Shown here piece after piece: positions 6,338 through 24,614 of a DNA stretch of 64,000 nt. The notes beneath the pieces were generated by a model that saw only the letters and a list, made by a program, of their open reading frames with translations, made no database searches and was not told the origin of the DNA. Position 1 is the first letter of the stretch. Every line of letters begins with the position of its first letter. The DNA is from Archaeoglobus sp. JdFR-27. Its GTDB lineage: Archaea > Halobacteriota > Archaeoglobi > Archaeoglobales > Archaeoglobaceae. The position numbers and the translations under genes were made by a program. The stretch covers positions 62,001 to 126,000 of the forward strand of contig MTMO01000003.1 in assembly GCA_002011235.1 (NCBI GenBank). Reading direction: 5' to 3'.

Positions 6338-7720
6338 GTGGTAAGATTCGTTCACATAGCTGATGTCCATCTTGGTAACAAGCAGTATGGCAGTGAAGAG
6401 AGGCAGATGGACTTTGCTCAGGCTTTTCTGAATGCAATAAAATTTGCTATAGCGGAGAAAGTTGACTTTATTCTCATAGCTGGAGATCTTTTTCACAAAA
6501 AAACAGAAATGGATCCAGTAACTTTATTGCAGGCAAGAAAAGTTCTCGAGATACCGAAGAAGGAGGAGATCCCAGTTATAGGTGTTGAAGGTAATCATGA
6601 CTCAACCTACTTCAGAGAAAGCTACTCTTGGATGGATTACTTGGCTATTAACGGTCTTATGATTAACTTAAAACCCTCCTTCGAGGATGGGAAATTAAGA
6701 TTAGAGGAATGGGACGGAAAAAGTGGGACATACTATGACTTCAATGGAATCAGGATTTATGGAATGAAATACTATGGCTCGATTTCAGAACGTATCATCG
6801 AGGAATATTTTGCAAAAATGAGGACTTCTAAAAACACAATCTTCATGGCTCATATTGGAGTGGAGGGATACGTAAAGAACATGTACGGCTGCATCCCATC
6901 AGCCAAGATCCACAAGCTTGGCAGAAAAGTTGATTACATCGCCCTAGGCCATGTTCACAAGGCTTTTGTTGAGAAAAATCTGGTTTTCAACCCAGGAAGC
7001 CTTGAAGCATGTGACATAACGGAGACCGCATATGAAAGAGGAGTTTTCGTCGTAGACATGGAAAGTGGTAATCCCAATGCAACACTTAAAAAAGACTTTT
7101 ATGAGCCTAGAGATTTCGTAATTCTGAAGTACAGGGTTAAAAAAGGTATTGAGGAGCTTAAAGGATTTTTAAGCTCAGAGAGGGAGAAAACTAAGCTTAA
7201 AAACAAACCGGTAATCGATCTAACTCTCGATGTGGAGAAATCTTTGAAAAACAGCCTTGAAGAAGACAAGATTAAGGAGTTGATTTCCGAGTATTTTGAT
7301 CCCTTGTTGATAAGACTCCATTGGGATGTAAGAGATCATTTCAGGCCAACAATGCTGGATTTGTCAACTAAGGAGAGCATAGAAAGGAGTGTTGTGGAGC
7401 AACTCCTCGATAACTATAGCTATGGGAAAATAGCTCCTGAGGTTTTAAAGCTAAAAAAGCTGTTTTCCACATCCTTTGATCTTGAAATGGTTGATAGGCT
7501 AATCGACGATTTGCTGTTTGAGAGAGAAGATGCGAAAAGTCCACAAAAAGATTCTGTTTTGACAAGGAACTTAAAAGATCCTGTACCTGAGCCAGAAAAG
7601 TTGTACATAGGAAGGGAAACGGAAAGGAGTGAATCCGATTTAGAGGAAGAGGAAGAAGTTTGGGACTGGAGGAGAGTCCGTGATAAGGGAGGTCGTACTA
7701 GAAAACGTAAAAAGCTATGA
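6338..7720 (+). CDS. mre11: Mre11 nuclease
   Basis: A 460-residue DNA double-strand-break repair nuclease. The metallophosphoesterase motifs are in order: HIADVHLG (I), AGDLFHKK (II), GVEGNHDS (III), MAHIGVEGY (IV) and ALGHVHK (V). A capping domain and a C-terminal Rad50-binding helical region follow. The last 40 residues are strongly charged (Glu run, then RKRKK). Mre11 binds Rad50 and processes DNA ends before HerA-NurA resection. The start is GTG 6338. The gene overlaps rad50 by 41 nt, which implies coupled translation of the complex. Confidence 0.95.
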   Translation: MVRFVHIADVHLGNKQYGSEERQMDFAQAFLNAIKFAIAEKVDFILIAGDLFHKKTEMDPVTLLQARKVLEIPKKEEIPVIGVEGNHDSTYFRESYSWMDYLAINGLMINLKPSFEDGKLRLEEWDGKSGTYYDFNGIRIYGMKYYGSISERIIEEYFAKMRTSKNTIFMAHIGVEGYVKNMYGCIPSAKIHKLGRKVDYIALGHVHKAFVEKNLVFNPGSLEACDITETAYERGVFVVDMESGNPNATLKKDFYEPRDFVILKYRVKKGIEELKGFLSSEREKTKLKNKPVIDLTLDVEKSLKNSLEEDKIKELISEYFDPLLIRLHWDVRDHFRPTMLDLSTKESIERSVVEQLLDNYSYGKIAPEVLKLKKLFSTSFDLEMVDRLIDDLLFEREDAKSPQKDSVLTRNLKDPVPEPEKLYIGRETERSESDLEEEEEVWDWRRVRDKGGRTRKRKKL

Positions 7721-10334
7721 ATTTGAGAGGTTCAACTTCACAGAGGGGCTTAATGCTATAATAGGTGAGAACGGAGCGGGAAAAACTACGATACTTGAGG
7801 CTATCGGCTTTGCTCTCTTCGATTCGTTACCCTATAAGATCTCTGATTTCCTAAGAAAAGGAGCAAAGAAAGGATCGATAAAGATTGCTTTCCTCTCAAG
7901 GGATGGGAGAGAATATGTAGTCGTGAGAAATATAACTGAAACAGGAACAACAGAATTCTACATAAAAGATCAAGAGGTTGGCAGGGTTGCTGAGGGAAAA
8001 GAAGTTTTGAAATGGATTAAACAGGCTTTTGGAATAGAAAGCGATCAGAAGATGTTCTTTGAGAACGCAATTGGAGTTTTACAGGGAAAGATGACAGCCC
8101 AGTTCCTTGAGCCTCCTAGCGTGAGAGATAGAATATTCTCTCCAATAATCGGGATTGAGAGTTACAAAAAGGCTTACGAAAAAAGCAGAGAATATGAAAA
8201 CTACATATCCGAGAAACTTACCGAAGTGGATAAGCAGATTTTTGGATTGGAAAGGGAACTGGAGCTGAAAAAAGAGGTTGAAAAAGAGGTTGAGGAGTTG
8301 GAGAGAAAAGGAGATCAACTCCTGAAAAAGATTAAAATAGCGAAAAAAGAGCTTTCAGAGAAGAATAAAAAATTTGAGGAATTTGAGGATCTTAAAAAAG
8401 AGATTGAGGACCTGTCTAGAAAAATCGTCGAACTCCAAGAGAAGATCTTATTCCATAGGAAGAATCTAAGCGCTACAGAGGAGAGACTCGAGAAAATCGA
8501 GGAGATCGAGAAAAGATTGAAAGAAATCGAGAGGGAATATAAAGAGTACGTTGAAATCGAGGAAAAGATTAAAGAATTTGAGAAGGAAGAGAGAGAGCTG
8601 TCTAAAAAAGCAGAAGAATTCCTTAAAAAGAAGAACGAATTGTATGCTCTCGAAGAAAGGATGAAATCTATTTTTAAGGAGATTTCAGAGATATCTGAGA
8701 AGGAAGAAAAATTAGGTGAGCTAAGAGAGCTTACAAAAAAAGAAAAAGAGCTGGCTGAAAGGACTCAAAAGATTGAGGTTGCTGAGGTTGAGTTCAAGCA
8801 GCTAACAGAACAGAAAAGCAAAGCCGAGATAGAAATTTCAAAAATAACCTTAAGGGTTAAAGAGCTCAGAGTAAGAAAGGAAAAACTTATGAAAGCGGTT
8901 AAAAGCCTGGAAAAACTTAAAGGCTTGGAGGAAAAGCGTGATGCTCTCATCAAGAAGCTAACCGAAATTGAAAGCGAGAAGAACAGGCTTAAAGAGGAAC
9001 TGAATTATCTTAAAGAGAGTATTTGCCCGATTTTAAAGGAAGAATGCGATCGGATTTCAGGAAAAAGGTCAGAAGTAGAAAAGAGATTCAGCGAGCTCGA
9101 AAAGCTTTCATCAGATCTGGAGAAGAAGCTTAAAAAACTAAACGAACTCTATGAGGTAAAAAGAAAACTGGAAAATGCGGCACAGAAACTTTCAGGTGAG
9201 ATTAAAAATTTTGAAGAGTTGGAAAGAGAACTGGAATCGAAAAAGGAGGAAGTCAAGAATATTTCCGCTAAATTAGATGAACTCAAAGAGATTGTAAAGG
9301 ATAAAGAGTTAATTTTAAAGGAGTACGAAAAGGTAAAAGGGAGCACTGAAAAACTAGCGGGAATTGAAGTACTCTTAACTGAAAAGGAAAAGAAGAAGAT
9401 CGAGTTGGAAAAAATTGGTGACACCATAAAAAAGCTTGAAAAAGAGCTAGCTGACCTTCAGCCTGAAGTAGAAAGATACGAAAAGATTAAAGATGAGATA
9501 AGTGATTCTAGAAAGAAGAAAGAGGCAAAAAAAAGATTTTATGAAGAATATATCGCTGGAATAGCCTTATTAAGAGAAAAGAGTAAGATTGAAAACGAGA
9601 TTGCAGAGTTAAGAATAAACATCAAGGAGTTAGAGGAACAAATAAAAAAACATGAAAATGATCTCTCTTCAAAAGAGTCCAAATTCGATGAAAAAGAATA
9701 TGATGGTATCAAAAAAGAGATTATCGAGTTAACTTCTCTTATAGGTAACATTGAGGGTCAGCTAGAGAGCAACAAAAAAACAATTGATGAGAGAAAGAGA
9801 AAAATCGAGGAGCTCAAAAAAAGGGAGACTGAATATAAAGCTTTGTCCAAAGAAAGGAACACTCTAAAAAGAAAACTCGATTTCATCAAAGACCTGAGGG
9901 AAATTTTTAAGCTCGCGATACCCGAGATAACAAAAGCCTACGTCGAATCCGTTTCCATCGAAGCCAACAGAATTTTCTGCGAGATTATGGGTGATTATAG
10001 CTGGGAGCTCAGATGGACGGAAGATTACGGGATTAAAACAAAGTACAGGGGAAGAGAAATCGATTTCGCACAGATGAGCGGGGGTGAGCAGATGTGTGCC
10101 GCTATAGCGGTTAGACTTGCATTGCTGAACATTCTGTCCGATGTTGGCATAGCTTTTTTTGATGAGCCAACGCAAAACATGGACGAAAGAAGGAGAAGGA
10201 ATCTCGCCACCCAGCTTTCCAGAATAGATGGTTTCAAACAGATCTTCGTGATAAGCCACGACGACACGTTTGAGGAAATGGTTGAGAATGCGATAAAGGT
10301 AACAAAGGAGAATGGGGTTTCGAGGGTACAGTAG
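7680..10334 (+). CDS. rad50: Rad50 ATPase of the Mre11-Rad50 complex
   Basis: An 884-residue SMC-like ATPase. The Walker A GENGAGKTT is at residues 29-37, the signature MSGGEQMCAAIA near 800, Walker B IAFFDEPTQNMD next, and the H-loop VISHDD at the end. Between them lie two long antiparallel coiled coils. At the midpoint, where the CXXC zinc hook belongs, the sequence is CPILKEEC (C449, C456), so the two cysteines are six residues apart instead of two. GTG 7680 is preceded by GGAGGAG and starts inside mre11. Rad50 tethers DNA ends and gates Mre11 activity. Confidence 0.95.
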   Translation: MIREVVLENVKSYEFERFNFTEGLNAIIGENGAGKTTILEAIGFALFDSLPYKISDFLRKGAKKGSIKIAFLSRDGREYVVVRNITETGTTEFYIKDQEVGRVAEGKEVLKWIKQAFGIESDQKMFFENAIGVLQGKMTAQFLEPPSVRDRIFSPIIGIESYKKAYEKSREYENYISEKLTEVDKQIFGLERELELKKEVEKEVEELERKGDQLLKKIKIAKKELSEKNKKFEEFEDLKKEIEDLSRKIVELQEKILFHRKNLSATEERLEKIEEIEKRLKEIEREYKEYVEIEEKIKEFEKEERELSKKAEEFLKKKNELYALEERMKSIFKEISEISEKEEKLGELRELTKKEKELAERTQKIEVAEVEFKQLTEQKSKAEIEISKITLRVKELRVRKEKLMKAVKSLEKLKGLEEKRDALIKKLTEIESEKNRLKEELNYLKESICPILKEECDRISGKRSEVEKRFSELEKLSSDLEKKLKKLNELYEVKRKLENAAQKLSGEIKNFEELERELESKKEEVKNISAKLDELKEIVKDKELILKEYEKVKGSTEKLAGIEVLLTEKEKKKIELEKIGDTIKKLEKELADLQPEVERYEKIKDEISDSRKKKEAKKRFYEEYIAGIALLREKSKIENEIAELRINIKELEEQIKKHENDLSSKESKFDEKEYDGIKKEIIELTSLIGNIEGQLESNKKTIDERKRKIEELKKRETEYKALSKERNTLKRKLDFIKDLREIFKLAIPEITKAYVESVSIEANRIFCEIMGDYSWELRWTEDYGIKTKYRGREIDFAQMSGGEQMCAAIAVRLALLNILSDVGIAFFDEPTQNMDERRRRNLATQLSRIDGFKQIFVISHDDTFEEMVENAIKVTKENGVSRVQ

Positions 10335-10354: not shown

Positions 10355-11284
10355 ATGGATTTTGAAATAGGAAAAGTGATTGAAACGAAAGTTTTCGATT
10401 CAATACCGGAGTTTCTCAAATTCGTTAAGGGAATGGAGTCCTTTGAGTACGAAATCGAGGTTGAGAAGGCAAGAATAACAAGGATAGAACTTGAGGGAAA
10501 AGAATGGTATCTGAATGTTCTGAATGGGAAAAAGGTTACCGGAGTTGACGGTAGCCAACTCAGACATCTCAGAGAGTTTGGAATACCATTCGGGGCGGTT
10601 CAAATTGCGAGATTCAGTGTTGTGCATGGTGCTAAAGATTACTCCCTAAAATTCAAGTCTAAATGGGTTGGACTCGAACACGATTTAGATCTCGAGCGAT
10701 TCAATTTAGAGATAGATGTCCTCATCGAAGAAATGGGAACGGGAGACAGCTATCTCTTCTACGATGGAAGCTTCGTTCTTTCCTTCATATCACAGCTGAG
10801 AAAGGATTTGAGAGCAGCCTATACTGAAGCAATAAACAGAATGTTGGAGAGGAGCGAAGAGACCTCAACCCCCGTATTCGGTTTTGTGGAAAAAAGCTTT
10901 GCAAGAGATATTTCCGATCTCATTTACGATGCTCTCGCTTTAAGGGAAATACTGAACATATTCGAATACACCAAGCCATTGCCATGTAAAAGGGAGATTA
11001 CGAAGGAATACAAAAAAAGGGTTTATTTCTCATACCTCTCACTCAACAGACTCTTTCCCGTTAGAATCGAGTTTCCAGAGTGGATGGTGGATGAAATCGA
11101 TAGATTTGCAGAATTAACAGCAGCGGAATGCCTGCTTGGAAGTACGAGAAACTATCCATACGTTCTTGAGAGGGCGCACAAGTACGCGATCGTAAGAGAG
11201 GTTGAAAGGGAAGCGATAGGTAGGATGTTCTCGAAAGTTGCAACAGCCGGCACATCCTTCAAATGGATTTCAAAAAAGATGTAA
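10355..11284 (+). CDS. nurA: NurA 5'-3' nuclease
   Basis: A 309-residue nuclease. The N-terminal metal-binding motif TGVDGSQ gives Asp65, and a second acidic site is in FYDGSFV near residue 138. Both are characteristic of NurA. NurA pairs with the HerA hexamer to resect DNA ends and create 3' single strands for RadA. It starts 21 bp after rad50 in the same operon. The length agrees with archaeal NurA proteins (about 300-450 residues), on the compact side. Confidence 0.9.
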   Translation: MDFEIGKVIETKVFDSIPEFLKFVKGMESFEYEIEVEKARITRIELEGKEWYLNVLNGKKVTGVDGSQLRHLREFGIPFGAVQIARFSVVHGAKDYSLKFKSKWVGLEHDLDLERFNLEIDVLIEEMGTGDSYLFYDGSFVLSFISQLRKDLRAAYTEAINRMLERSEETSTPVFGFVEKSFARDISDLIYDALALREILNIFEYTKPLPCKREITKEYKKRVYFSYLSLNRLFPVRIEFPEWMVDEIDRFAELTAAECLLGSTRNYPYVLERAHKYAIVREVEREAIGRMFSKVATAGTSFKWISKKM

Positions 11285-11357
11285 ATGAATGCAGAAATAG
11301 AGGGGCTGAGAAAGTTGGAAGGAGTTAGAAGTTTGAAAAAGTTGGAAAGGTGAAAGT

Positions 11358-11831
11358 ATGAAGATTTTAAGGCTTCTGAGCGATGATGAGTTCGAGGTTG
11401 AGGGGGAGCTAAATGTGGGCGATGTGATTAAAACGGCAGAAAGTCTGGCGATTGTTCTTTCCCTTTATCACGAAGATTCAGAGATAAGCAAATATTTCGG
11501 AATGGAGGCTGGAAAAATAAAGGAATTTATGCCAGATCTTGCTGGTGGGGAGAGAATTGCGAAATGCTTCGTTTTGCATTGTAAAAACCTTCCAAAACCA
11601 GGCGAAGAGGTTGAGCTTGCTGATGATAAGGAGCTAAGATGTATCCACCTTATAGATGGTGAGTTTTCCGTCCCTTACCTAATAGCGCTCATGAAGAAAT
11701 GCAGAGACAGGTTATGGGTTGTAAGGGACTACCTGAACAGGCTGATGAGGGCAATTCCCGAGGAGAAGGAAGTAATTGAGATCATAAAGGCTGAAGTAGA
11801 ATATCGGATGCTGAAAAGTATGGAGATGTAG
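11358..11831 (+). CDS. Unknown protein between nurA and herA
   Basis: A 157-residue protein that I cannot assign to a named family. Its first 50 residues (DEFEVEGELNVGDVIKT, then IVLSLYHEDS) resemble a small beta-barrel and recall the HAS-barrel at the HerA N-terminus. This is a weak impression only. The C-terminal half is helical and charged and contains KKCRDRLWVVRDYLNRLMR. Three more cysteines are present (KCFVLHC and ELRC). A GGAAAGGTGA ribosome-binding site precedes the ATG. It lies 14 bp before herA, so it is co-transcribed with the resection machinery and may be an accessory subunit (inference). Confidence 0.7.
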   Translation: MKILRLLSDDEFEVEGELNVGDVIKTAESLAIVLSLYHEDSEISKYFGMEAGKIKEFMPDLAGGERIAKCFVLHCKNLPKPGEEVELADDKELRCIHLIDGEFSVPYLIALMKKCRDRLWVVRDYLNRLMRAIPEEKEVIEIIKAEVEYRMLKSMEM

Positions 11832-11845
11832 GAAAGGGGATTAAA

Positions 11846-13426
11846 ATGGTAAGTAAATCGAAGCCTGTAGGTTTAGTTAAAGGACCTTCAGAGGGATTTA
11901 ATTTTAAATTCATAACTCCAGACAAGACTTCTTTGAAAATAGGTGATTTCGTTTACTATATGTACAATGGAAGGAAGGTTATTTGCAGGATTGTTAAAAG
12001 GGATCCCCTTAGACTCTTTCCCAATGTGTATCTTTCCAACCCGAGTATAAATCCTGAAAGGATCTTAAAGGCTATAGGAATGAGTGCAACCGAGTTCGAG
12101 CTTTTTGAAATAAAAGCAAGCATAATTGGGTATTATGATGATATTTTAGGATTCGTAAATCCTAGAATAACTCCTGAGCCCGGAAAAGAGATCTATCTTG
12201 CTGAGAAAGAGGTCATTGAAGAGTCGTTGCTGAAGAAAAAGGTAAGCGAGGGGGGGTCAATCCACCTCGGATACCTTCTCAACAGAGAAGATGATGTGGC
12301 GGTTGTTTTGGATACCTCCCTTGTTGTCAGCGAACACATGTGCATTCTTGCCTCAACTGGAAGCGGAAAGAGTTACCTAGCCGGGGTTCTTGTCGAGGAG
12401 CTCCTTAAACCCTACAATTCTGCAGCCGTACTGATTCTCGATCCCCACAGCGAATACCACACACTTAAGGAGATTGAGGGATTAGAGGAGTACAACTCCA
12501 ACGGATACAGAGCAATGGTAAAGATCTTTGGAAAGGATGAGATAAAGATAAGACTTTGCGAGCTTGAATATGATGAGTTGATTAACGTTCTTCCCTCACT
12601 CAGCGATAAAATGGAGGCTATACTGAATGTCGTTTACAGAGAGCTTGAGGGGGAGAAGTTCACGGTCGACGATCTTGTAGATGCTATCAAAGCGAGGGCT
12701 GAGGATGAGAGAGATATTACTGCAAAGGCCCTTACATGGAGAATCAGGAGGTACATCGAGAACGTTGACATAATCGATGACTACATCCACTTAGAGCTAA
12801 AAGATATTCTAAAGCCGGGGATGGCTGCCGTACTCCAAATGTCCGAGATGAGTGATCTTGAACAGCAGCTTTTAACCTCCGTACTCTTGAAAAGGATTTT
12901 AAACGCAAGAATAAATGCTGAGAAGGGAATGGATGGTGAGAAGCTGGAGTATCCGGTCTTCGTTATCGTTGAAGAGGCTCACAGATTTGCCTCTCGAGAA
13001 TCAAGAAGCTTTGACGTGCTTAAAACAATCCTATCTGAGGGTAGAAAATTTGGAGTGGGCATTTGTTTAATAAGCCAGAGACCCTCAAAGATCGACTCCG
13101 ACATACTCAGCCAGTGTATGACCCAAGTTATAATGCGGATAGTAAATCCAGCGGACCAAGAAAATATCAGAGCTTCAGTTGAAAGCGTTGGGAGGGAGCT
13201 AATAGAAGAGTTGCCCGGATTGACGAAGGGTCAGGCTTTGGTCGCTGGCGTTGCAATAAATTCTCCGATCCTGATGAGGGTAAGAAGGAGGCTCACCTCC
13301 CACGGAGGAGTTAGCAAGAATGCTCCAAAGGAGTGGAGACAACACTTTGAGCGCCCAGACGCTGAAAATACTAAAGATATAGAGATTCCATCATCAGGTC
13401 AGAAAAGGCTTTTCTGGGATGAGTGA
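11846..13426 (+). CDS. herA: HerA DNA translocase/helicase
   Basis: A 526-residue hexameric FtsK/HerA-type ATPase. The N-terminal HAS barrel (about residues 10-140, with KIGDFVYYMYNGR) is followed by Walker A STGSGKSYL at about residue 170, Walker B VFVIVEEAHRFA and the conserved SEGRKFGVGICLISQRPSKID region with its arginine finger. HerA drives DNA through NurA during end resection. The C-terminal 40 residues are a charged tail. It is the last gene of the mre11-rad50-nurA-X-herA operon, and a T-rich stretch follows the stop. Confidence 0.95.
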   Translation: MVSKSKPVGLVKGPSEGFNFKFITPDKTSLKIGDFVYYMYNGRKVICRIVKRDPLRLFPNVYLSNPSINPERILKAIGMSATEFELFEIKASIIGYYDDILGFVNPRITPEPGKEIYLAEKEVIEESLLKKKVSEGGSIHLGYLLNREDDVAVVLDTSLVVSEHMCILASTGSGKSYLAGVLVEELLKPYNSAAVLILDPHSEYHTLKEIEGLEEYNSNGYRAMVKIFGKDEIKIRLCELEYDELINVLPSLSDKMEAILNVVYRELEGEKFTVDDLVDAIKARAEDERDITAKALTWRIRRYIENVDIIDDYIHLELKDILKPGMAAVLQMSEMSDLEQQLLTSVLLKRILNARINAEKGMDGEKLEYPVFVIVEEAHRFASRESRSFDVLKTILSEGRKFGVGICLISQRPSKIDSDILSQCMTQVIMRIVNPADQENIRASVESVGRELIEELPGLTKGQALVAGVAINSPILMRVRRRLTSHGGVSKNAPKEWRQHFERPDAENTKDIEIPSSGQKRLFWDE

Positions 13427-13450
13427 TTTTTCTTTTACTTTTCATCCCTA
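13427..13450 (+). terminator. T-rich terminator after herA
   Basis: Immediately after the herA stop the sequence runs GATTTTTCTTTTACTTTTC. Three consecutive T4-5 runs in the coding strand are the usual form of an archaeal intrinsic terminator. It separates the resection operon from the next TATA box at 13467. Confidence 0.5.
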
Positions 13451-13466
13451 ATTTTACTAAAAAAGA

Positions 13467-13475
13467 TTTATAAAG
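13467..13475 (+). promoter_or_regulatory. TATA box of the bactofilin-like gene
   Basis: TTTATAAAG preceded by an A-rich BRE-like AAAAAAGA lies 20 bp before the ATG at 13496. The expected start of transcription therefore coincides with the start codon, which suggests a leaderless mRNA. Confidence 0.5.
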
Positions 13476-13495
13476 ATGCATTCCGAAGAGGTTGT

Positions 13496-14512
13496 ATGGG
13501 TCGCTTTATCAGCTTTACCAGATTTTTGACTATCCTTTTTCTAACACTTGCTTTAGCTATTCCTGTAGCTTCAATCGAGATCAAATCCGGTGGACGGATA
13601 GTGATTGAACAGCCAAAAGAGGATCTCATCGTCTCAGGTGGAAGGGTGATAGTGAGTGCTCCAATTAAAGGAGATTTAATCGTTGCTGGTGGAGAGGTTG
13701 AGGTTTTGGATAACGTAGGCGGTGATTTGATAGCCACAGGCGGAAGAATTGATTTAAGAGGAGATGTAGGCAGAAAGCTGATTGTTGCCGGAGGGAGTGT
13801 AAAAATCAGCGGACACGTAGAGAAGTTCGTTATTGCCAGCGGGGGTGAGGTTACAATAGGCGAGACATCCAAAATCAACGGCGATGTTCTCGTGGCTGGA
13901 GGAAAAATTGAAAATAGAGGAGTTGTAGATGGTAATTTTACCGCCTTTGGAGGGTCATTTGAAAATAAAGGGACGATAATAGGGGAACAAATCTTTAAAA
14001 AGGCTAAAATTCTGCCACCCTACTTTTCTGAAATATTCGCTTTTGGATTTCTCATCTTGGGATTTTTGCTAATACGGTTTGAATCTAGCTGGTTTGAAAG
14101 GGTGAATGCAGAAATTAAAGTAAGAGGGATTGAGCTCATGAAACGAATCCTTTTAGGATTCGTGGGAATAATAATCTCAGGAATAGTGATCGTACTGCTA
14201 CTTATAACGATAATCGGTATACCTTCAGCATTGTTAATTCTCGCCGCATTTGTGATCGCATTACTCCTATCGAACGTCTTCGTTTCCTACACCATCGGGG
14301 AGACCCTCATTTCCTCTAAAAAACAGAATCCGTACCTTTACCTTATAACAGGATTTGTGATTCTCTTTATCGCCTTCAAACTCCCATATATTGGAGATCT
14401 GATCAGATTGATTACAACGAGTCTGGGTTTCGCAGGAATGGTTTATGTGTTGAGGGATTGGAGGAAATCAAGAGAATCGAGAAAATCAATTAAGAATATC
14501 GACGAGACTTAA
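13496..14512 (+). CDS. Bactofilin-like polymer-forming membrane protein with signal peptide
   Basis: A 338-residue exported protein. Residues 1-26 form a signal peptide (FLTILFLTLALAIPVAS). Residues about 28-165 are a right-handed beta-helix of about 20-residue turns, with repeated motifs such as GDLIVAGGEV, GDLIATGGRI, KLIVAGGSV and GDVLVAGGKI. Residues about 180-320 hold four hydrophobic membrane segments (AFGFLILGFLLI, LLGFVGIIISGIVIVLLL, ALLILAAFVIALLL, YLITGFVILFIAF). The repeat domain is related to bactofilin/polymer-forming cytoskeletal proteins and would face the cell exterior. The ligand is unknown. It heads a unit with the TlyA-like gene 9 bp downstream. Confidence 0.75.
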   Translation: MGRFISFTRFLTILFLTLALAIPVASIEIKSGGRIVIEQPKEDLIVSGGRVIVSAPIKGDLIVAGGEVEVLDNVGGDLIATGGRIDLRGDVGRKLIVAGGSVKISGHVEKFVIASGGEVTIGETSKINGDVLVAGGKIENRGVVDGNFTAFGGSFENKGTIIGEQIFKKAKILPPYFSEIFAFGFLILGFLLIRFESSWFERVNAEIKVRGIELMKRILLGFVGIIISGIVIVLLLITIIGIPSALLILAAFVIALLLSNVFVSYTIGETLISSKKQNPYLYLITGFVILFIAFKLPYIGDLIRLITTSLGFAGMVYVLRDWRKSRESRKSIKNIDET

Positions 14513-14521
14513 ACAGAAAAA

Positions 14522-15181
14522 ATGAGGGTCGACGAGCTGCTCGTAAAAAGGGGTTTTTATTCCACGAGGCAGAAAGCGAAGGAAGCTATAAAAAGAGGAG
14601 AGGTTTTTGTTAACGGAAGAAGAGTTAAGAAATACTCTGAAGACATCGACTTCTCAGCAAAAATAGAGGTCTTTGGGGAGGAAAGGCCGAAAGGATACTG
14701 GAAGCTTAAGGAGCTGAATGAGAAGTGGAACTTCATTAAAAAAGGTAAAGTTCTTGATTTAGGCAGCAGTGCTGGAGGATTCTTGCTTTATGCAAAGGAG
14801 ATTGCTGATTTTGTTCTAGGAATCGAGTACAGTGATGAGTTCAGAGATGAACTCAGAAGGATTGAGAGAGAAAATAAAAACGTGAAAGTCATTTTTGGCG
14901 ATGTATTCAAACTTGATTTGGACATAATATATGAATATGAAAAGTTTGACGTGATTCTGGATGACCTCACTGTTGATCCTAAAAGTTCATACAAAGCCTT
15001 AAAGAGGTTTTTGCCTTCGTTGAAGGAAAATGGATTCGTGCTCTTCATAGCAAAAACCGGATTGGACGATACTCTACCAAAATTTGACTTAAGAATTATC
15101 AGATCAGAAAAGGCTAAAGACAGGGATGAGATCTACTTTTTGCTTGGTGATAAATTAGCCAGTAAACCAGAGTTAAAATAA
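14522..15181 (+). CDS. TlyA-like S4-domain RNA methyltransferase
   Basis: A 219-residue protein. Residues 1-60 are an S4 RNA-binding domain (RVDELLVKRGFYSTRQKAKEAIKRGEVFVNG). Residues about 75-210 are a class I SAM methyltransferase with motif I VLDLGSSAGGFLLYA and motif IV-like DVILDDLTVDP. Bacterial TlyA and FtsJ-like relatives 2'-O-methylate rRNA. The typical FtsJ K-D-K-E set is not clearly complete here (DDLTV in place of SD-A/P), so the target and even the activity are uncertain. It is likely cytoplasmic and probably co-transcribed with the preceding gene. Confidence 0.75.
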   Translation: MRVDELLVKRGFYSTRQKAKEAIKRGEVFVNGRRVKKYSEDIDFSAKIEVFGEERPKGYWKLKELNEKWNFIKKGKVLDLGSSAGGFLLYAKEIADFVLGIEYSDEFRDELRRIERENKNVKVIFGDVFKLDLDIIYEYEKFDVILDDLTVDPKSSYKALKRFLPSLKENGFVLFIAKTGLDDTLPKFDLRIIRSEKAKDRDEIYFLLGDKLASKPELK

Positions 15182-15193
15182 ATCAGGGTTAAA

Positions 15194-15204
15194 CTTTTAA
15201 ATAG
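15194..15204 (+). promoter_or_regulatory. TATA box of leuDB
   Basis: CTTTTAAATAG lies 18-28 bp before the leuD ATG at 15223, the distance of a leaderless archaeal promoter. Confidence 0.4.
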
Positions 15205-15222
15205 CTGAGATTTCTGCACTTC

Positions 15223-15714
15223 ATGGGAAGGGTTTGGAAGTTCGGAGATGATATCGATACCGATGTAATAATCCAAGGAAAGTACCTCGTCATCAACGAT
15301 CCAGTTGAGCTGGCAAAACACGTTTTTGATAATATCCGCCCGGAATTTGCAAAGAATGTAAAGCCCGGAGACTTTATCGTTGCCGGAGAAAACTTTGGTT
15401 GCGGGAGCAGCAGAGAGCACGCTCCACTTGCATTAAAAGCAACTGGAATTGAGGCCGTGATAGCAAAATCCTTTGCAAGAATATTTTTCAGAAATGCGAT
15501 AAATCTGGCTTTGAAGGTTATAGAATGTAAAGATGCCGACAAAATTGATGAGGGGGATGAAATCAAAGTTGATTATAAAGGAGGCATAATCTATAACCTC
15601 ACAAAGAGAGAAGAGTATAAGACAACACCACTTCCCGATTTTCTTGAAAGAATACTTGAAAAGGGAGGTTTGGTAAACTTTTCTAAGGAGACGTACAAAC
15701 AGGAGACTAGATAA
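15223..15714 (+). CDS. leuD: 3-Isopropylmalate dehydratase small subunit
   Basis: A 163-residue swivel domain of the aconitase superfamily. [18 protein letters not shown] is the conserved phosphate/carboxylate-binding segment. The substrate-selecting loop reads KYLVIND. In methanogen studies the YLV(hydrophobic) form marks isopropylmalate dehydratase, whereas YLRT marks homoaconitase, so leucine biosynthesis is favoured. The catalytic large subunit (LeuC) is not in this window. leuB begins 26 bp downstream in the same operon. Confidence 0.9.
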
Positions 15715-15740
15715 GAGAGAAAACAAGACAAGGTGAGAAA

Positions 15741-16730
15741 ATGAAGAGAATAGCCGTCATCCCCGGTGATGGAATAGGAGAAGAGGTTATAGATGGTGCC
15801 CTTGAGGTCCTCAATGCTTTCAGCTTTCCCTTCAAATACGAATGGGGAGAGGCTGGGGATGCTGTTAAGGAGCGAAAGGGAGTAGCTTTGCCTGAAGAGA
15901 CTCTTGAACTCTGTAAAGAGAGCGATGCCGTTCTTTTTGGAGCAGTAGGAGAGACTGCTGCAGATGTAATTATAAAATTAAGAATGGAACTCCAAACCTT
16001 TGCAAACATCAGGCCTGCAAAATCCTTCAAAGGTGTTAAATCCCTATACGATGACGTTGATATAGTCATAGTAAGAGAGAACACGGAATGTCTTTACAAG
16101 GGGTTAGAATTTGAGGTTGCCGATGGTATTACTGAGGGGATAAGGATTATCACACGGAACGCCTCGGAAAAGATAGCCCATTATGCCTTCGAACTTGCGA
16201 AAAAAGAAAGGAGAAAGAAGGTTACCGCCTTACACAAGGCGAATGTGATGAGAAAAACCTGTGCTCTTTTCAGAGACGTTTGCAGAACTGTGGCGAAAGA
16301 GTATCCGGAAATCGAGTTCAACGATTACTACATCGATGCCGCATGCATGTATTTGGTGATGGACCCCTGGAGGTTTGACGTTATCGTTACAACGAACATG
16401 TTTGGAGATATCGTCTCAGACCTCGCTGCTGGTCTGGTAGGTGGGCTTGGTTTAGCACCCTCGGGCAACATAGGTGAAAAGAGTGCTATCTTCGAGCCGG
16501 TCCATGGATCCGCTCCAGACATAGCCGGCAAAGGAATAGCAAATCCTTCAGCGGCGATACTGTCTGCAACGATGATGCTAAAACACTTCGGATTCATCGA
16601 TGAGGCAAATAAAATTGAGAAAACCCTTGAAAAAGTAATTTTAGAAGGAAAAACAACTCCTGATCTAGGAGGAAAGCTCAAAACAGATGAAATGGTAAGA
16701 GAAATTACAAAAAATCTCGAGTTGTCTTAA
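15741..16730 (+). CDS. leuB: 3-Isopropylmalate dehydrogenase
   Basis: A 329-residue NAD-dependent beta-decarboxylating dehydrogenase. VIPGDGIGEEV opens the protein. LRMELQTFANIRP, VIVRENTECLYKGLE, and TNMFGDIVSDLAAGLVGGLG are the metal/substrate motifs. EPVHGSAPDIAGKGIANP is the nucleotide-binding loop. It oxidises 3-isopropylmalate in leucine synthesis. The operon with leuD supports this over homoisocitrate dehydrogenase, although the two are hard to separate by sequence. Confidence 0.9.
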   Translation: MKRIAVIPGDGIGEEVIDGALEVLNAFSFPFKYEWGEAGDAVKERKGVALPEETLELCKESDAVLFGAVGETAADVIIKLRMELQTFANIRPAKSFKGVKSLYDDVDIVIVRENTECLYKGLEFEVADGITEGIRIITRNASEKIAHYAFELAKKERRKKVTALHKANVMRKTCALFRDVCRTVAKEYPEIEFNDYYIDAACMYLVMDPWRFDVIVTTNMFGDIVSDLAAGLVGGLGLAPSGNIGEKSAIFEPVHGSAPDIAGKGIANPSAAILSATMMLKHFGFIDEANKIEKTLEKVILEGKTTPDLGGKLKTDEMVREITKNLELS

Positions 16731-16741
16731 ATCAATACTCT

Positions 16742-16975
16742 CTATTCTTTTCTCTCAATCTCCTTTTTTATTTTCGCCATTACGCCATCAATCTCCCTCT
16801 CAAGATCCGACACCATATCCAGGAGCTTTATAAAATCAAACTCCTCAAATTCATCTTTCATATCGGGGTGAGACGCTATAAAGTCTTTCAAATTCAATGC
16901 TATTGTTCTCGCATCTCCAAATGCATAATTCAAAACTCCTAGCATCAGCAAAAGTCGAGTTTTTCTGTCAAACAC
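16742..16975 (-). CDS. Small helical protein of unknown function downstream of tpiA
   Basis: A 77-residue protein that I do not recognise. It has a Leu-rich first half (RLLLMLGVLNYAFGDARTIALNL) and an acidic then basic helical second half ending IKKEIERKE. There is no signal peptide and no cysteine. It starts 4 bp after the tpiA stop, so it is translated from the same mRNA as fae-hps and tpiA. The stop lies 11 bp from the leuB stop on the opposite strand. Confidence 0.65.
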   Translation of the reverse strand: MFDRKTRLLLMLGVLNYAFGDARTIALNLKDFIASHPDMKDEFEEFDFIKLLDMVSDLEREIDGVMAKIKKEIERKE

Positions 16976-16979
16976 CCGA

Positions 16980-17642
16980 TCACCTTAATCCAACCAGCTC
17001 TTCTAACGCCTTTTTCTGATCTTCTGCTTTAACAATTCCACTGGCGAGCAAAACGCCATCTGCTCCAAGATCGAGGGCTGTAATGTAATCTTCATGCTTG
17101 CTTATGCCAGCGCCGCATAAAACCATTACTTCTTTGTTTACGTCCTTCGCTGCTTTAACAGAATTTTCCACGATTTCTGGTTCCGCCTTCGAAACTGGAA
17201 TGCCACTTCCGATCAATTCAGGAGGTTCAATCGCTACGTAGTCGGGGGAGAGAGCTGAGGCTGCTGCAGTTGTCGCAACATTGTTTGTGCAAACGACAGA
17301 CGTTAGGCTTAATTCCTTGAACTTCGACACAAGAAAGTCGATGTCAGCAAGCCTCAATCTTCTTTCTGAATGATTTATGAGGCTGCCCTTAGCTCCTTTT
17401 TCCTTCAAAACCTCAGCAGTAATTCTGCTAGTGTGGCTTCCAAAGGTTACAGCATCTACATGTTGAGCGAAAACGTCAACGTTAAACTTTGAAACAATTT
17501 CAGGAATGTCAAGGAAGTTTGGAGCCACGGCGATATAATCATCAACTTTAGATGAGACTTCTTCCACTATTTCTGCAAGTTTTAAAGCCTGTTTCCCGCT
17601 TCCCTCTCTGTATGCTTTGAAATTTATTATGATAACACCCAT
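16980..17642 (-). CDS. tpiA: Triosephosphate isomerase (archaeal type)
   Basis: A 220-residue TIM, the short form typical of Archaea. NFKAYREGSGKQAL carries the catalytic Asn/Lys position (N-x-K), the His region is INHSERR and the catalytic Glu is in YVAIEPPELIGSG. The phosphate loop is LCGAGISKHED. It interconverts dihydroxyacetone phosphate and glyceraldehyde-3-phosphate. It lies 30 bp behind fae-hps on the same strand, linking C1/pentose chemistry with triose metabolism. Confidence 0.93.
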   Translation of the reverse strand: MGVIIINFKAYREGSGKQALKLAEIVEEVSSKVDDYIAVAPNFLDIPEIVSKFNVDVFAQHVDAVTFGSHTSRITAEVLKEKGAKGSLINHSERRLRLADIDFLVSKFKELSLTSVVCTNNVATTAAASALSPDYVAIEPPELIGSGIPVSKAEPEIVENSVKAAKDVNKEVMVLCGAGISKHEDYITALDLGADGVLLASGIVKAEDQKKALEELVGLR

Positions 17643-17672
17643 GATTTCACCTGTGATTAAATAATTAAAAAG

Positions 17673-18854
17673 TTAAAAATCGGTCATAATTCTGAACTGA
17701 TCTGTATCTGGCTTCATGTATTGCAGAAATCTCCTAACCGCTCCTTCAACATCTCTTGCTTTCGTAATTGACCTTCCAACCACAAGAATGTCGGCCCCCT
17801 CGTTTATCGCCTGATTGATATTTTCAGGCCTCAAACCTCCGGCAACAGCGACAAGTACGTTGAAAGAGCCTTTTACTTCAGATATTTTCACCCATGGTGG
17901 CCTCTCTTTGTTCTCAACATCAATAGCCCTATGAAGTTCGACAACATCAGGCATAACGCCCTCTTTTTCTAATTTTTCCAGAACACTATCCGGGTTGCTT
18001 ACGTTCAACATGTCAACAACCGAGAGAATTCCAGTTTTCTTCGCTTCTTTTATCGCTTTAACAATTGTCGGAATTGGTGCCAAACCTGAGACGACAACAG
18101 CATTGGCAGTTGCATCTGCAGCCATTCTCGCTTCAAGATTGCCCGTATCAAGAGTTTTCAGATCCAGAACAAAGAATCCATCAGGTCTTTCCTTTCGAAG
18201 TTCTAAAATGACTTCAGCCCCATATCTCTTTACGAGTGGAGTTCCGATTTCAAAGATTATGTGGTCGCTTGGGGGGATCTTCCCCAAAACTGATTTAACC
18301 TCTTCCAAATCAGGCAGATCGATAGCAATCTGTAAGTATGGCGGATCCCAGAGTTTGGTAAGCTTTCTTCCCACAAATGGATGGACACTTCTATCTTTTT
18401 CATACAGCATCGTATCAACATCCGGAAAACCTTCCATCGCACGCCTCAGAGCGAGTTTTGTTGCACCGTAGTTATAATAGTAAATTTTATCCCTATTACT
18501 CGCTTTAGGATGGATGAAAACACTCACAATTACAACCAGATTCTCTGCCTCTTCCGTTGGAACGATTCCCTCCTCAACAGCATCAGCTATCGCCTTTGCA
18601 ACGGCTGCTTGAGCGGGACCAAAAATGAGTTCTGCCTGTTCCATTTCCCTTACGGTCACTTTTGGTATTATCAATGCTGCTGGTTTTGTAATTAAGTTCG
18701 GCCTAATTACCGCAAGTAACGGTGTGTGACCAACAGAAAGTTGAGAGAGACTGTTTGCAAAAGCCATACCAACAGGCCCATTTTTCTCTCCGACAATAAG
18801 ATCAACGTGCGCAACCTCATATCCTTCTCCGATTAAAGCTTCTCCAATCCTCAT
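17673..18854 (-). CDS. fae-hps: Bifunctional formaldehyde-activating enzyme / 3-hexulose-6-phosphate synthase
   Basis: A 393-residue fusion. Residues 1-165 are Fae: MRIGEALIGEGYEVAHVDLI contains the catalytic His. This half condenses formaldehyde with tetrahydromethanopterin. Residues about 175-393 are Hps, an OMP-decarboxylase-like barrel, with LDLKTLDTGNLE and VAVAGGLRPENI. It forms or cleaves hexulose-6-phosphate and so links formaldehyde with ribulose-5-phosphate. In archaea the pathway mainly runs toward ribulose phosphate. ATG 18854 starts the Fae signature; an upstream ATG (18881) adds nine residues not found in the family. Lead gene of a unit with tpiA. Confidence 0.93.
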   Translation of the reverse strand: MRIGEALIGEGYEVAHVDLIVGEKNGPVGMAFANSLSQLSVGHTPLLAVIRPNLITKPAALIIPKVTVREMEQAELIFGPAQAAVAKAIADAVEEGIVPTEEAENLVVIVSVFIHPKASNRDKIYYYNYGATKLALRRAMEGFPDVDTMLYEKDRSVHPFVGRKLTKLWDPPYLQIAIDLPDLEEVKSVLGKIPPSDHIIFEIGTPLVKRYGAEVILELRKERPDGFFVLDLKTLDTGNLEARMAADATANAVVVSGLAPIPTIVKAIKEAKKTGILSVVDMLNVSNPDSVLEKLEKEGVMPDVVELHRAIDVENKERPPWVKISEVKGSFNVLVAVAGGLRPENINQAINEGADILVVGRSITKARDVEGAVRRFLQYMKPDTDQFRIMTDF

Positions 18855-19137
18855 GACTCTTACACCTTTTCTATATTTCAACTATTTTTAAGTCTTCTTT
18901 ATTTAATTTCTGTTTATTCTTAAGTTTAATTCAAGCCTTAGAAATAATAAAAGTTTTTGGGTTTTCCTAATTTCTTCTCAGCTTTTGAATCCTAATTTAT
19001 GAAGTTTATAAATCATGAAATCTTCTTTATTTCCAAATAATACGGGGGTAAAAATCCTACAGTTCGTTCGAGAATTTTAGGGATGGATTTTTTATAGGGT
19101 GCAGAAAAAACTCTATAAAATATGTGGAGATAGAAAA
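18855..19137. other. Intergenic region between fae-hps and the cupin pseudogene
   Basis: An AT-rich stretch without a convincing gene. It contains the promoter region of the minus-strand fae-hps unit. TTTTTTATAGG near 19087-19097 is a possible TATA box for the cupin on the plus strand. Confidence 0.5.
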
Positions 19138-19473
19138 ATGTGCAAAAAACAAGAAGAATTTGAAAAGCCATTATCGGTAAAATTGATTGATCTTATTGAG
19201 TATCAAGAAGGCGCTATAGTTAGCAGAACCATAATACATAAAAAAAGGGACCGTAACCCTTTTTGCCTTTGATGTCGAGCAAGGTTTAAGTGAACATATT
19301 GCTCCATTTGATGCTTTAGTCTACGCTTTGGATGGTGAGGCAGAAGTTGTTATATCCGGGCCGAGGCTATCCATCTGAAAAGCGGTGAGATGGTTGTAAT
19401 GCCTGCAAATAAACCTCATGCCATTCGGGCTTTGACAAAATTCAAAATGATCTTGATAATGATACGATCTTGA
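19138..19473 (+). pseudogene. Cupin-domain protein with two frameshifts
   Basis: From ATG 19138 the reading starts MCKKQEEFEKPLSVKLIDL and continues to VSRTIIHKK. It shifts at an A7 run near 19239 (one base too many), reads on in another frame as TVTLFAFDVEQGL, then HIAPFDALVYALDGEAEVVIS. At a GGG near 19360 it returns to the first frame (one base too few) with AIHLKSGEMVVMPANKPHAI and ALTKFKMILIMIRS to the stop at 19471. The pieces together match a complete small cupin of about 110 residues, with metal-binding positions EHIAPF and the GEMVVMPANKPH motif. The two indels compensate and both lie at homopolymers, so sequencing error, true decay and programmed shifting are all possible. Confidence 0.75.
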
Positions 19474-19526
19474 AATACGATCTTGAAAAATGTGAGAACA
19501 GATCCCTCTTTTCAACCCCCTGAAAA

Positions 19527-19536
19527 TAATATATAC
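19527..19536 (+). promoter_or_regulatory. TATA box of the SCP-2 gene
   Basis: AATATATAC about 31 bp before the ATG at 19567, followed by an ACAGGTGAT ribosome-binding site. Fits a promoter separate from the cupin. Confidence 0.45.
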
Positions 19537-19566
19537 TTTTGATTTAGAAATTGAACAGGTGATACC

Positions 19567-19968
19567 ATGCCGAAGTTTTTCAGTCAAGAGTGGATAGAGA
19601 AATTTGTAGAGGCCGTAAATTCCAATGAGGAGTATGAAAAAGCAGCTAAAGGCTGGGAAGGAGATTTTCTTTTTGTCGTTGAACCTGATGACGAACTTGA
19701 GAAACCCATGTATGCTTACATAGACCTCTACCACGGGAAAGCAAGAAAGGGTTATGTTGTCGAGGATCCTTCCCAAGTCAAGACTGCTTTTGAGTTTAGG
19801 GGAAAGTTTTCGGACTGGAAGAAGTTACTCGCAGGAGAAATTGACCCGATTAAAGGGCTAGTGACGAGAAAGTTCCAGCTAAAAGGAAACATGGCAATGG
19901 TTATGAGATATGCAAAGGCTGCAAAACTGCTGGTCGAGTGTACGAAGCAGGTTGAGACTGAGTTCTAG
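19567..19968 (+). CDS. SCP-2 (sterol carrier) family protein
   Basis: A 133-residue single-domain lipid-binding-type protein. MPKFFSQEWIEKFVEAVNSN starts the domain. FLFVVEPDD, YAYIDLYHGKARKGYVV and the C-terminal helix LKGNMAMVMRYAKAAKLLVEC follow the SCP2 pattern. The family binds hydrophobic acyl or sterol-like ligands in the cytoplasm. The archaeal ligand is unknown. It is followed on the same strand by Fe-ADH and AOR genes, so a role in handling a hydrophobic alcohol/aldehyde substrate is conceivable (inference). Confidence 0.8.
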   Translation: MPKFFSQEWIEKFVEAVNSNEEYEKAAKGWEGDFLFVVEPDDELEKPMYAYIDLYHGKARKGYVVEDPSQVKTAFEFRGKFSDWKKLLAGEIDPIKGLVTRKFQLKGNMAMVMRYAKAAKLLVECTKQVETEF

Positions 19969-20026
19969 ATCTCCAAATTCAATGAAACCGAAGTGAAATA
20001 GATCGCATAAAAATCGTGTGATAACC

Positions 20027-21184
20027 ATGTGGTGGTTTTCGTCCCCCAGAATAGCCTTCGGTGAGGATTCTCTGGAGTTTTTGGAGACTCTTGAGGGTAG
20101 ATTTCTGATTGTAACCGATACGAATTTGGTCAAGGCTGGGATCGTTGAAAAAGTTACGAGGTATTTGAAGGGAGAATATGAAATCTTCGACAGAGTTGAG
20201 CCGGATCCTTCATTTGAGATTGTCGAAGAGGGAGTTATAGTTGCTCAGAGTTTCAAACCAGATTACATAATCGGTGTAGGTGGGGGTTCTTCGCTAGATG
20301 TTGCAAAAGGGGTAAGAATCATCTATGAGAACCCTGACCTTGATCCAGAGGAGATTTCTCCGTGGACAGATGTTGAAGAGAAGGGTGTTAAACTGATTCT
20401 GATTCCAACTGCAAGTGGGAGTGGAAGCGAGGGTTCAAATGCGATAGTTCTCACAAAAAAGGATGAAAGTAGGAAAATAGCCTCAATCCATCCACGAATA
20501 ATGGCAGATTATGCGATTGTCGATCCAGAAATGGTGAATGACTTGCCCGAGAAGGTTGCAGCCTTTACAGGTTTAGATGCTCTGTCACATGCGATCGATG
20601 CCTATGTTTCAGCATGGAAGAACGATTTTGCTGACGGACTTTGCATTCAGGCTTGCAAACTTCTTTTCAACTACTTACCAAGGGCATGCAAGGATAGAAA
20701 CGATAGAGAGGCTGTTGAAAAAGTGCATAATGCTGCAACACTTGCCGGGCTTGCAATTGGAAGCTCCCAGGCTGGCCTATCCCATTCCCTTGGTCACTCG
20801 ATAGGCGGTGTTTTCCATATTCCCCACGGATTCGCATGTGGAATTTCTCTGCCTTACACAACCAAATACTACTCGAGATTTGCGATGGAATATTACGAGG
20901 AGCTTGCTTATCACCTTGGTATTCAAGCAAAGGGGGAAGAGGCTATAGATGAACTTGTAAAGAAAATAAAATCCCTTCTTGCTTCGCTAAACGTTCCTGA
21001 TAACCTCAGGGGTATCTTCAAGGAGTATGGAATTGAGGAAAAGGAATTCTACGACAAGCTCGATAAACTCATTTACAACTCCAGCACCGATAATACAGTT
21101 CTAACGCTTGTCGACATTCCATCTGAGGAGGATTTTGAGAGGCTTTTCATCTATGCTTTTGAGGGGAGAGAAATCGATTTCTAA
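20027..21184 (+). CDS. Iron-containing alcohol dehydrogenase
   Basis: A 385-residue group III ADH. MWWFSSPRIAFGEDSLEFLE is the usual archaeal start. IGVGGGSSLDVAKG binds NAD(P) and PTASGSGSEGSN is the second glycine-rich loop. Metal ligands are visible in DALSHAIDAY and SHSLGHSIGGVFHIPHG. It interconverts alcohols with aldehydes or ketones. GTG 20018 would add three residues; ATG 20027 is preferred. It precedes the AOR gene by 48 bp, so the pair could take an alcohol to a carboxylate. Confidence 0.9.
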   Translation: MWWFSSPRIAFGEDSLEFLETLEGRFLIVTDTNLVKAGIVEKVTRYLKGEYEIFDRVEPDPSFEIVEEGVIVAQSFKPDYIIGVGGGSSLDVAKGVRIIYENPDLDPEEISPWTDVEEKGVKLILIPTASGSGSEGSNAIVLTKKDESRKIASIHPRIMADYAIVDPEMVNDLPEKVAAFTGLDALSHAIDAYVSAWKNDFADGLCIQACKLLFNYLPRACKDRNDREAVEKVHNAATLAGLAIGSSQAGLSHSLGHSIGGVFHIPHGFACGISLPYTTKYYSRFAMEYYEELAYHLGIQAKGEEAIDELVKKIKSLLASLNVPDNLRGIFKEYGIEEKEFYDKLDKLIYNSSTDNTVLTLVDIPSEEDFERLFIYAFEGREIDF

Positions 21185-21231
21185 TTTCTGCTTATGATTC
21201 CAGTTTCAAGTTTCAAACCGGAGGTGTTTGA

Positions 21232-23022: not shown

Positions 23023-23088
23023 ATCTGGAAGAGAAAATTGGATTGGGAAAAACGTAAATTAAATTAAATACCACCTTCTCCCTTTTTT

Positions 23089-24315: not shown

Positions 24316-24584
24316 AAACGATAGAAATAACGGTGGATGAGTTTGAGGACTGGCTTCTTCAGAGAGGTTACGATAACCTGATGGGAGACGAGCATTTCCG
24401 GATGTTTCTTCAGCTTGGTATGGCATCGCTTTTCTTCACCAACAGCGCATTGCTCATGAGCTGCATTTACAGCAAGCTTGGTCTGCAGTCGGAAAGGATT
24501 GATCTGAGGGCGAGATTTGCGATAGCAAGAAAGGTGAGGGAAATCAGGGCTGATAAGTACAGAATAAGCATTCTTCTTGAATAG
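24312..24584 (+). CDS. Small protein of unknown function, coupled to the M20 deacylase
   Basis: A 90-residue protein without a recognised family. It begins MKTIEITVDEFEDWLLQRGYD, then has a hydrophobic middle LQLGMASLFFTNSALLMSC that may be a buried helix, and ends with a basic amphipathic stretch (RARFAIARKVREIRADKYR). The ATGA overlap with the preceding deacylase gene shows translational coupling. No conserved metal site is evident. It could be a partner of the deacylase (inference). Confidence 0.6.
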   Translation: MKTIEITVDEFEDWLLQRGYDNLMGDEHFRMFLQLGMASLFFTNSALLMSCIYSKLGLQSERIDLRARFAIARKVREIRADKYRISILLE

Positions 24585-24614
24585 AATGAGATCTAAATCT
24601 ATGCGGGCAGTTCT

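Follow-up and report, generated by a model that had tools for sequence, protein, structure and literature searches.

A predicted stand-alone HAS-barrel protein encoded between nurA and herA in Archaeoglobus, a candidate third subunit of one NurA-HerA lineage

The window, a stretch of 64,000 nucleotides from Archaeoglobus sp. JdFR-27, contains a resection operon of five genes, four of known families and one, termed X, without a family assignment (Table 1). The gene order mre11-rad50-nurA-X-herA, as proposed in the original prediction, is borne out by above-cut-off Pfam matches to Metallophos, AAA_21, NurA and DUF87, with the SMC_N, HerA_C and HAS-barrel matches in the operon lying below their respective cut-offs. 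X begins 73 bp downstream of the nurA stop codon, and its ORF coordinates confirm the placement 14 bp before the herA ATG. The HerA of the operon retains an N-terminal HAS barrel of its own (PF09378, E 0.034, under the cut-off). A second HerA-like ATPase is encoded elsewhere in the same genome (G000:C16:56628-57929; L172:2431-4014) and is 34% identical to the window HerA; BLAST shows no NurA-like gene beside it in 6.5 kb.

Table 1. Genes of the resection operon in the window
Gene	Coordinates	Strand	Product	Basis
mre11	6338..7720	+		PF00149, E 1.4e-17
rad50	7680..10334	+		AAA_21 above cut-off, SMC_N below; operon position
nurA	10355..11284	+	nuclease, 309 aa	PF09376, E 1.4e-17
X	11358..11831	+	stand-alone HAS-barrel protein (predicted), 157 aa	ORF, ATG start
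herA	11846..13426	+	DNA translocase ATPase, 526 aa, X-type lineage	PF01935, E 5.2e-39

X is a genuine conserved gene under purifying constraint. Five of six hand-chosen pairs of orthologues show dN/dS values of 0.02 to 0.12, with dS saturated in the sixth. These values, together with the occurrence of X in 29 of the 57 genomes of the window's order (the window genome counted), rule out a spurious ORF, and the constraint combined with an occurrence in 53 of 392 genomes of the phylum rules out a decayed HerA fragment. Searches with the single protein return little. The window X has no match in Pfam, and its best matches in NCBIfam (dihydroorotase, E 0.072, 11.7 bits where the cut-off is 576) and among PDB sequences (E 0.49) are at chance level. 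The X proteins of the window and of the archaeon DL31 plasmid match nothing among the PADLOC models at E 0.01. The absence of a recognised domain noted in the original prediction thus holds for curated families, but not for profile comparison and fold prediction, which both lead to the HAS barrel.

The fold of X is predicted with high confidence by AlphaFold2 (mean pLDDT 90.9, pTM 0.81). In the model, a barrel spans residues ∼1 to 96 and carries an inserted α1 segment at ∼41 to 62, followed by a junction at 97 to 107 with the conserved residues H97, G101 and Y107 and by a helical tail at 108 to 156. Helices are placed at 42 to 62, inserted in the barrel, and at 90 to 97, 108 to 114, 119 to 132 and 134 to 156. 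The best Foldseek match in the PDB is the Thermococcus HerA (9x1m_A, E 3.3e-4), with the Sulfolobus HerA (4d2i, E 8.6e-4) at ranks 2 and 3; these three matches show TM scores of ∼0.46 to 0.47 on the query X, and other HerA-like motors and F1-ATPase chains follow them in the list. In VIA-align, the F1 barrels (Z 10.1 over ∼60 residues) tie with the Sulfolobus HerA 4d2i_B (Z 10.0 over 126 residues, rmsd 4.8). The VIA-align comparison mostly covers residues 1 to 108, so that the helical tail is hardly compared with known folds.

Sequence profiles point to the same domain. An hhalign comparison of X with the N-termini of 18 HerA proteins extends over 128 columns at a probability of 92.4, a score of 48.5 and an E value of 5.1e-7, whereas the best of 200 column-shuffled controls reaches 17.8 and two reversed controls reach 13.2 and 12.5. 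Against PDB sequences, the X profile matches residues 21 to 123 of the Sulfolobus HerA (E 4.6e-5), with the next match at E 0.28, and the alignment runs through the barrel as far as the DG junction preceding the ATPase domain. X therefore shows both a HAS-type β-barrel fold in the model and homology to the HerA N-terminus; where HerA continues into its motor, X ends in a helical tail. The 157 residues contain no match to an ATPase family in Pfam or NCBIfam, the tail being predicted as helical, and none to the NurA domain PF09376, the predicted fold being that of a HAS barrel. In 10 diverse X relatives, PF09378 is matched below the cut-off in 5 (best E 6.8e-4, 20.1 bits against 25.2) and not at all in the other 5; X is thus not a member of PF09378 as Pfam draws that family. 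Other weak matches of the relatives are set aside as lying under their cut-offs: the EstV lipase in the same set of 10 (NCBIfam, E 6.5e-4, 19.4 bits against 300), RimM (NCBIfam, E 0.009 and 0.055) and the PRC barrel (Pfam, E 0.036). On profile and modelled fold, X is a homologue of the NurA-docking domain of HerA that exists as a HAS barrel on its own. This rules out an unrelated family, whether known or novel; the resemblance to the HAS barrel was rightly noticed at the outset, although it was described as a short segment and extends over the 128 aligned profile columns.

Conservation within X is concentrated in a few positions. G21, Y46, P59, D60, G82, H97, Y107 and L129 are invariant in the 29 orthologues of the order, and G21, H97 and Y107 remain invariant in 22 diverse members. 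The cysteines remarked upon in the original prediction are present in the window protein as C70, C75, C95 and C115, but these positions hold Cys in only 22, 5, 1 and 17 of the 29 close orthologues and in 7, 2, 1 and 3 of the 22 diverse members, respectively. The remark is accordingly without weight, and a cysteine metal site is ruled out by this poor conservation.

The linkage of X to nurA and herA is conserved far beyond the window. Within the order, X is found in 9 of 15 genera. A profile built from its 29 sequences matches in 42 of the 392 genomes of the phylum, and all 13 matches outside the order lie directly upstream of herA, with nurA on the same locus in 12; the exception (L120, genome G387) carries NurA elsewhere in the genome. 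A wider profile of 22 rows, which includes matches from outside the order, finds the 53 genomes given above. Among these, nurA adjoins X in 46, herA in 39 and both, with X in between, in 36. In 8 of the 53 genomes X lies beside nurA with herA elsewhere, in 2 beside nurA with no herA at the threshold, in 2 beside herA with nurA within 3 kb and in 1 (G387) beside herA with nurA elsewhere. X stands apart from both genes in 4 of 53, four genomes of genus g11 in which the three genes are nevertheless all retained. Extra sequence separates nurA from X in 2 of the 53 genomes. Apparent 4-bp overlaps occur between X and herA at 20 of 39 loci and between nurA and X at 13 of 48, counts that are approximate, being based on the first possible start codon. 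The position of X in the nurA-herA gap is therefore kept in relatives even outside the order, in 36 of the 53 genomes of the phylum. A scan of viral contigs with one distant X shows no relative, and a scan of genome contigs with the X of Archaeoglobus sp. JdFR-37 returns the query's own record only.

NurA is present in all 53 genomes with X and in 250 of the 392 genomes overall. X thus marks one kind of NurA-HerA rather than NurA in general. An association of X with short NurA proteins is rejected: the NurA beside X measures ∼285 to 340 aa in Archaeoglobi and mostly 350 to 450 aa at other X loci.

X is inherited together with one HerA lineage. When an X-type HerA is defined by a match to the HerA of the window with an E value of at most 1e-70, which holds for 56 of 392 genomes, 51 genomes carry both X and this HerA, 5 only the HerA, 2 only X and 334 neither. 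Fisher's test gives p ∼1e-55, which is nominal because the genomes are related. Among the five genomes with the HerA only, two have herA at a contig start (G029, G056), one, 81% complete, has only a fragment of herA at the end of a contig (G036), one also has no nurA (G041) and one encodes a divergent HerA (G169); an assembly gap likely accounts for the missing X in the first four. Genome G023 has NurA but neither X nor X-type HerA, in an assembly of 320 contigs, and its genus includes an X carrier. A HerA tree of 37 rows separates the 31 X-type rows from the 4 X-less rows by a branch with 100/100 support, with the X-type rows alone forming a fork at 89/90. The HerA of G169 and the second HerA of the window genome remain ungrouped on long branches of uncertain place.

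The absence of X in close relatives, which would have spoken against the original prediction, is seen in genera g2, g3, g9, g10, g13 and g15, with X present in the other nine. In g2, g3 and g13, the absence fits with another HerA lineage, and in g2 and g13 also with a different gene order. For the single genomes of g15 and g10, a contig start cutting the X-type herA may explain the missing X. Three loci (L169, L170, L173) of genera g2 and g13 in the window's family show the X-less module herA-mre11-rad50-nurA, which consists of the same four genes as in the window in another order, without X and with a HerA 27 to 30% identical to the window HerA. In genome G014 of g3, herA is separate from rad50-nurA. 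One archaeal family thus holds two alternative mre11/rad50/nurA/herA modules with distant HerA types, and X occurs in only one of them. Since the X-less lineages possess NurA and HerA, X is dispensable for NurA-HerA in general, and its natural presence and absence within one family would offer a genetic handle.

Outside the order, the five-gene cassette is found on haloarchaeal chromosomes and plasmids. X is present on four haloarchaeal plasmid records (archaeon DL31, Halobaculum, Natrinema and Halorussus), annotated as "hypothetical protein", and three of these four records were examined. On plasmid phalar01 of archaeon DL31 (L177, CP002989.1 160000-200000; positions 10803-24791), mre11-rad50-nurA-X-herA follows directly after SngA-SngB-SngC, whose genes match the PADLOC models SngA, SngB and SngC at E 6.6e-88, 2.9e-172 and 9.2e-270. 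SngABC is described as the Shango system (PMC11096173). Natrinema zhouii carries SngB/SngC-like genes at the corresponding position before the module; the observations on Sng-flanked and haloarchaeal modules cover L175 and L176 besides L177. In 20 of 23 loci, the five genes are uninterrupted by BLAST label, counting ORFs of at least 100 aa, and L188 is a twenty-first if its 411-aa ORF is NurA, as a Pfam match there indicates. At L181 (G073), nurA and X are separated by ORFs; L184 (G387) retains X-herA without mre11, rad50 and nurA alongside. The flanks vary and the module stays mostly intact, which argues for the five-gene module as the unit and for Shango as an occasional neighbour.

Further features were observed at these loci. 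In Halobaculum marinum, a gene of the phospholipase D family lies immediately before the module (L178:8162-10228), and ORFs resembling it are found near the module at L188 and L189. The window Rad50 shows a C-x6-C arrangement (Cys449/Cys456) in place of the CxxC zinc hook. For the Rad50 proteins of X modules outside the order (L175, L176, L178, L179-L198), 9 of 22 have no CxxC and 13 of 22 have CPTC, including those of three named haloarchaeal plasmids. Matches to PF09376 are present in Haloferax volcanii, whereas a review states that HerA and NurA are absent from this species (PMC7776575).

A model of NurA together with X, judged on its pLDDT and pTM, suggests a contact. The NurA-X stretch of a locus from the same genus (L004, genome G012) was folded by AlphaFold2 as one chain with the stop codons read as Gly, whereby the 28 residues between NurA and X serve as an artificial linker. 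This read-through model, with 6 of its 47 alignment rows paired and no negative control beside it, reaches a pLDDT of 89.2 and a pTM of 0.81, and linker residues 323 to 344 are disordered (pLDDT below 50). For independently placed NurA and X, a simple estimate of our own gives an expected pTM of ∼0.53 to 0.66, and a value of 0.81 demands a mean NurA-to-X error of ∼3 to 5 Å. In the α1 blocks of X, pLDDT increases from 69 and 67 for the isolated protein to 86, 86 and 89 in the presence of NurA, a comparison that spans two different orthologues and their separate alignments. False docking can occur when two proteins are joined in one chain. Known folds matched by the model are NurA, Argonaute and RNase H-like chains, a result that is uninformative on the interface. 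X is thus predicted to bind NurA, plausibly via its α1 segment. In the Thermococcus complex, it is the HAS α1 helices of HerA and their preceding loops that are reported to hold NurA (PMC12977600), and the HAS barrels of drHerA and ssoHerA are likewise reported to mediate NurA binding (PMC9960219).

The idea of an undescribed accessory subunit of NurA-HerA is supported by linkage, co-inheritance and HAS homology, together with the predicted binding. X is probably a dedicated third subunit of one NurA-HerA lineage, acting as a NurA-bound adaptor; given the caveats of the single-chain model, the adaptor role is put forward as a proposal. That X persists where herA lies outside the operon (8 of 53) or where both partners are distant (4 of 53) counts for the subunit, and since a HAS-domain gene travels with one NurA-HerA lineage, the machine there is probably three-part. 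X may have arisen from HerA by duplication and truncation, a direction suggested rather than fixed, with the HAS barrel and the ATPase junction retained and a helical tail in place of the ATPase. The NurA-X unit would dock onto the HAS ring of the HerA hexamer, with X as the adaptor joining the NurA dimer to the six-fold ring, and the helical tail might contact HerA or Mre11-Rad50. DNA pumped by HerA would then exit the ring via a collar including X before reaching NurA.

The main rival to this adaptor reading also starts from the predicted position of a HAS-barrel homologue on NurA. X could be a mimic of HerA and a regulator, holding the HAS-docking site of NurA and restraining the nuclease, kept off both motor and DNA, until HerA or Mre11-Rad50 displaces it. 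Such a role suits the 10 of 53 genomes that keep X beside nurA but have herA at another locus or no herA at the threshold. Restraint could also make sense for a nuclease like TkNurA, which on its own is reported to be slow, non-directional and ssDNA-specific (PMC12977600). The co-occurrence of X with a HerA lineage and the frequent X/herA overlaps better fit a joint complex, however, and restraint is considered unlikely. Less probable still is a protein that mainly binds HerA, its barrel joining or capping the HAS ring of the hexamer and altering ring opening or loading. In the rings of HerA and F1, neighbouring HAS barrels pack against each other, the predicted fold of X matches theirs, herA adjoins X in 39 of the 53 genomes and in G387 X lies beside herA with nurA elsewhere; against this, X has nurA as its neighbour in more genomes (46) than herA (39).

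It is scarcely credible that X is merely co-transcribed, or a small DNA-binding barrel serving the module from outside the NurA-HerA complex. A HAS-like barrel is indeed described as a DNA-binding module in BrxHI (PMC12839542), and the haloarchaeal module can occur on plasmids beside defence genes. This reading is opposed by the retention of X where it is unlinked from both genes (4 of 53), by its relationship to the docking domain of HerA and by the pTM of 0.81 with NurA in the read-through model.

A more far-reaching version of the adaptor reading, which seems possible though somewhat doubtful, is an obligate three-part machine. Here, a motor-derived HAS barrel would sit permanently on the nuclease and form a hetero-HAS collar where DNA leaves the pump, with X setting the way in which NurA dimer and HerA hexamer come together and the moment at which the nuclease is fed, for repair in Archaeoglobi and for foreign-DNA destruction in haloarchaea. 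The presence of the cassette on haloarchaeal chromosomes and plasmids, once behind Shango, suggests that the adaptor may serve both purposes. NurA-HerA has so far been studied as a two-protein machine. If a third subunit exists, two-protein reconstitutions miss a part in X-carrying archaea, and X is relevant to the symmetry mismatch between a two-fold nuclease and a six-fold ring. Recent Thermococcus work finds end resection by the complex hard to explain (PMC12977600). A separate HAS-barrel subunit does not appear in the titles and abstract openings listed in the literature search; the older herA work (PMC390275, PMC521647) might mention one.

Several known systems share elements with X. The N-terminal barrels of the α and β chains of the rotary F1-ATPase show the same fold, with the F1 barrel forming part of the ATPase chain, and we know of no functional link between them and X. 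The HerA-like motor chains of the TdpAB, SIR2-HerA and HerA-DUF4297 defence complexes match the X model; to our knowledge, none of these complexes has a separate HAS-barrel subunit. The two-component NurA-HerA of Sulfolobus, Thermococcus kodakarensis and Deinococcus is built from the same nuclease and motor families as the system of the window, and in archaea it is likewise encoded with mre11 and rad50. It is composed of six HerA and two NurA subunits according to two studies (PMC12977600, PMC9960219). The X-type HerA groups separately from the HerAs that occur without X in the window's family. Compared with the HAS barrel of HerA (PF09378; 4d2i, 9x1m), X has the same barrel in its model, a helical insert at the corresponding place and homology up to the ATPase junction, and it differs in having no ATPase domain, in its helical tail, in a score below the Pfam cut-off and in being encoded by a gene of its own.
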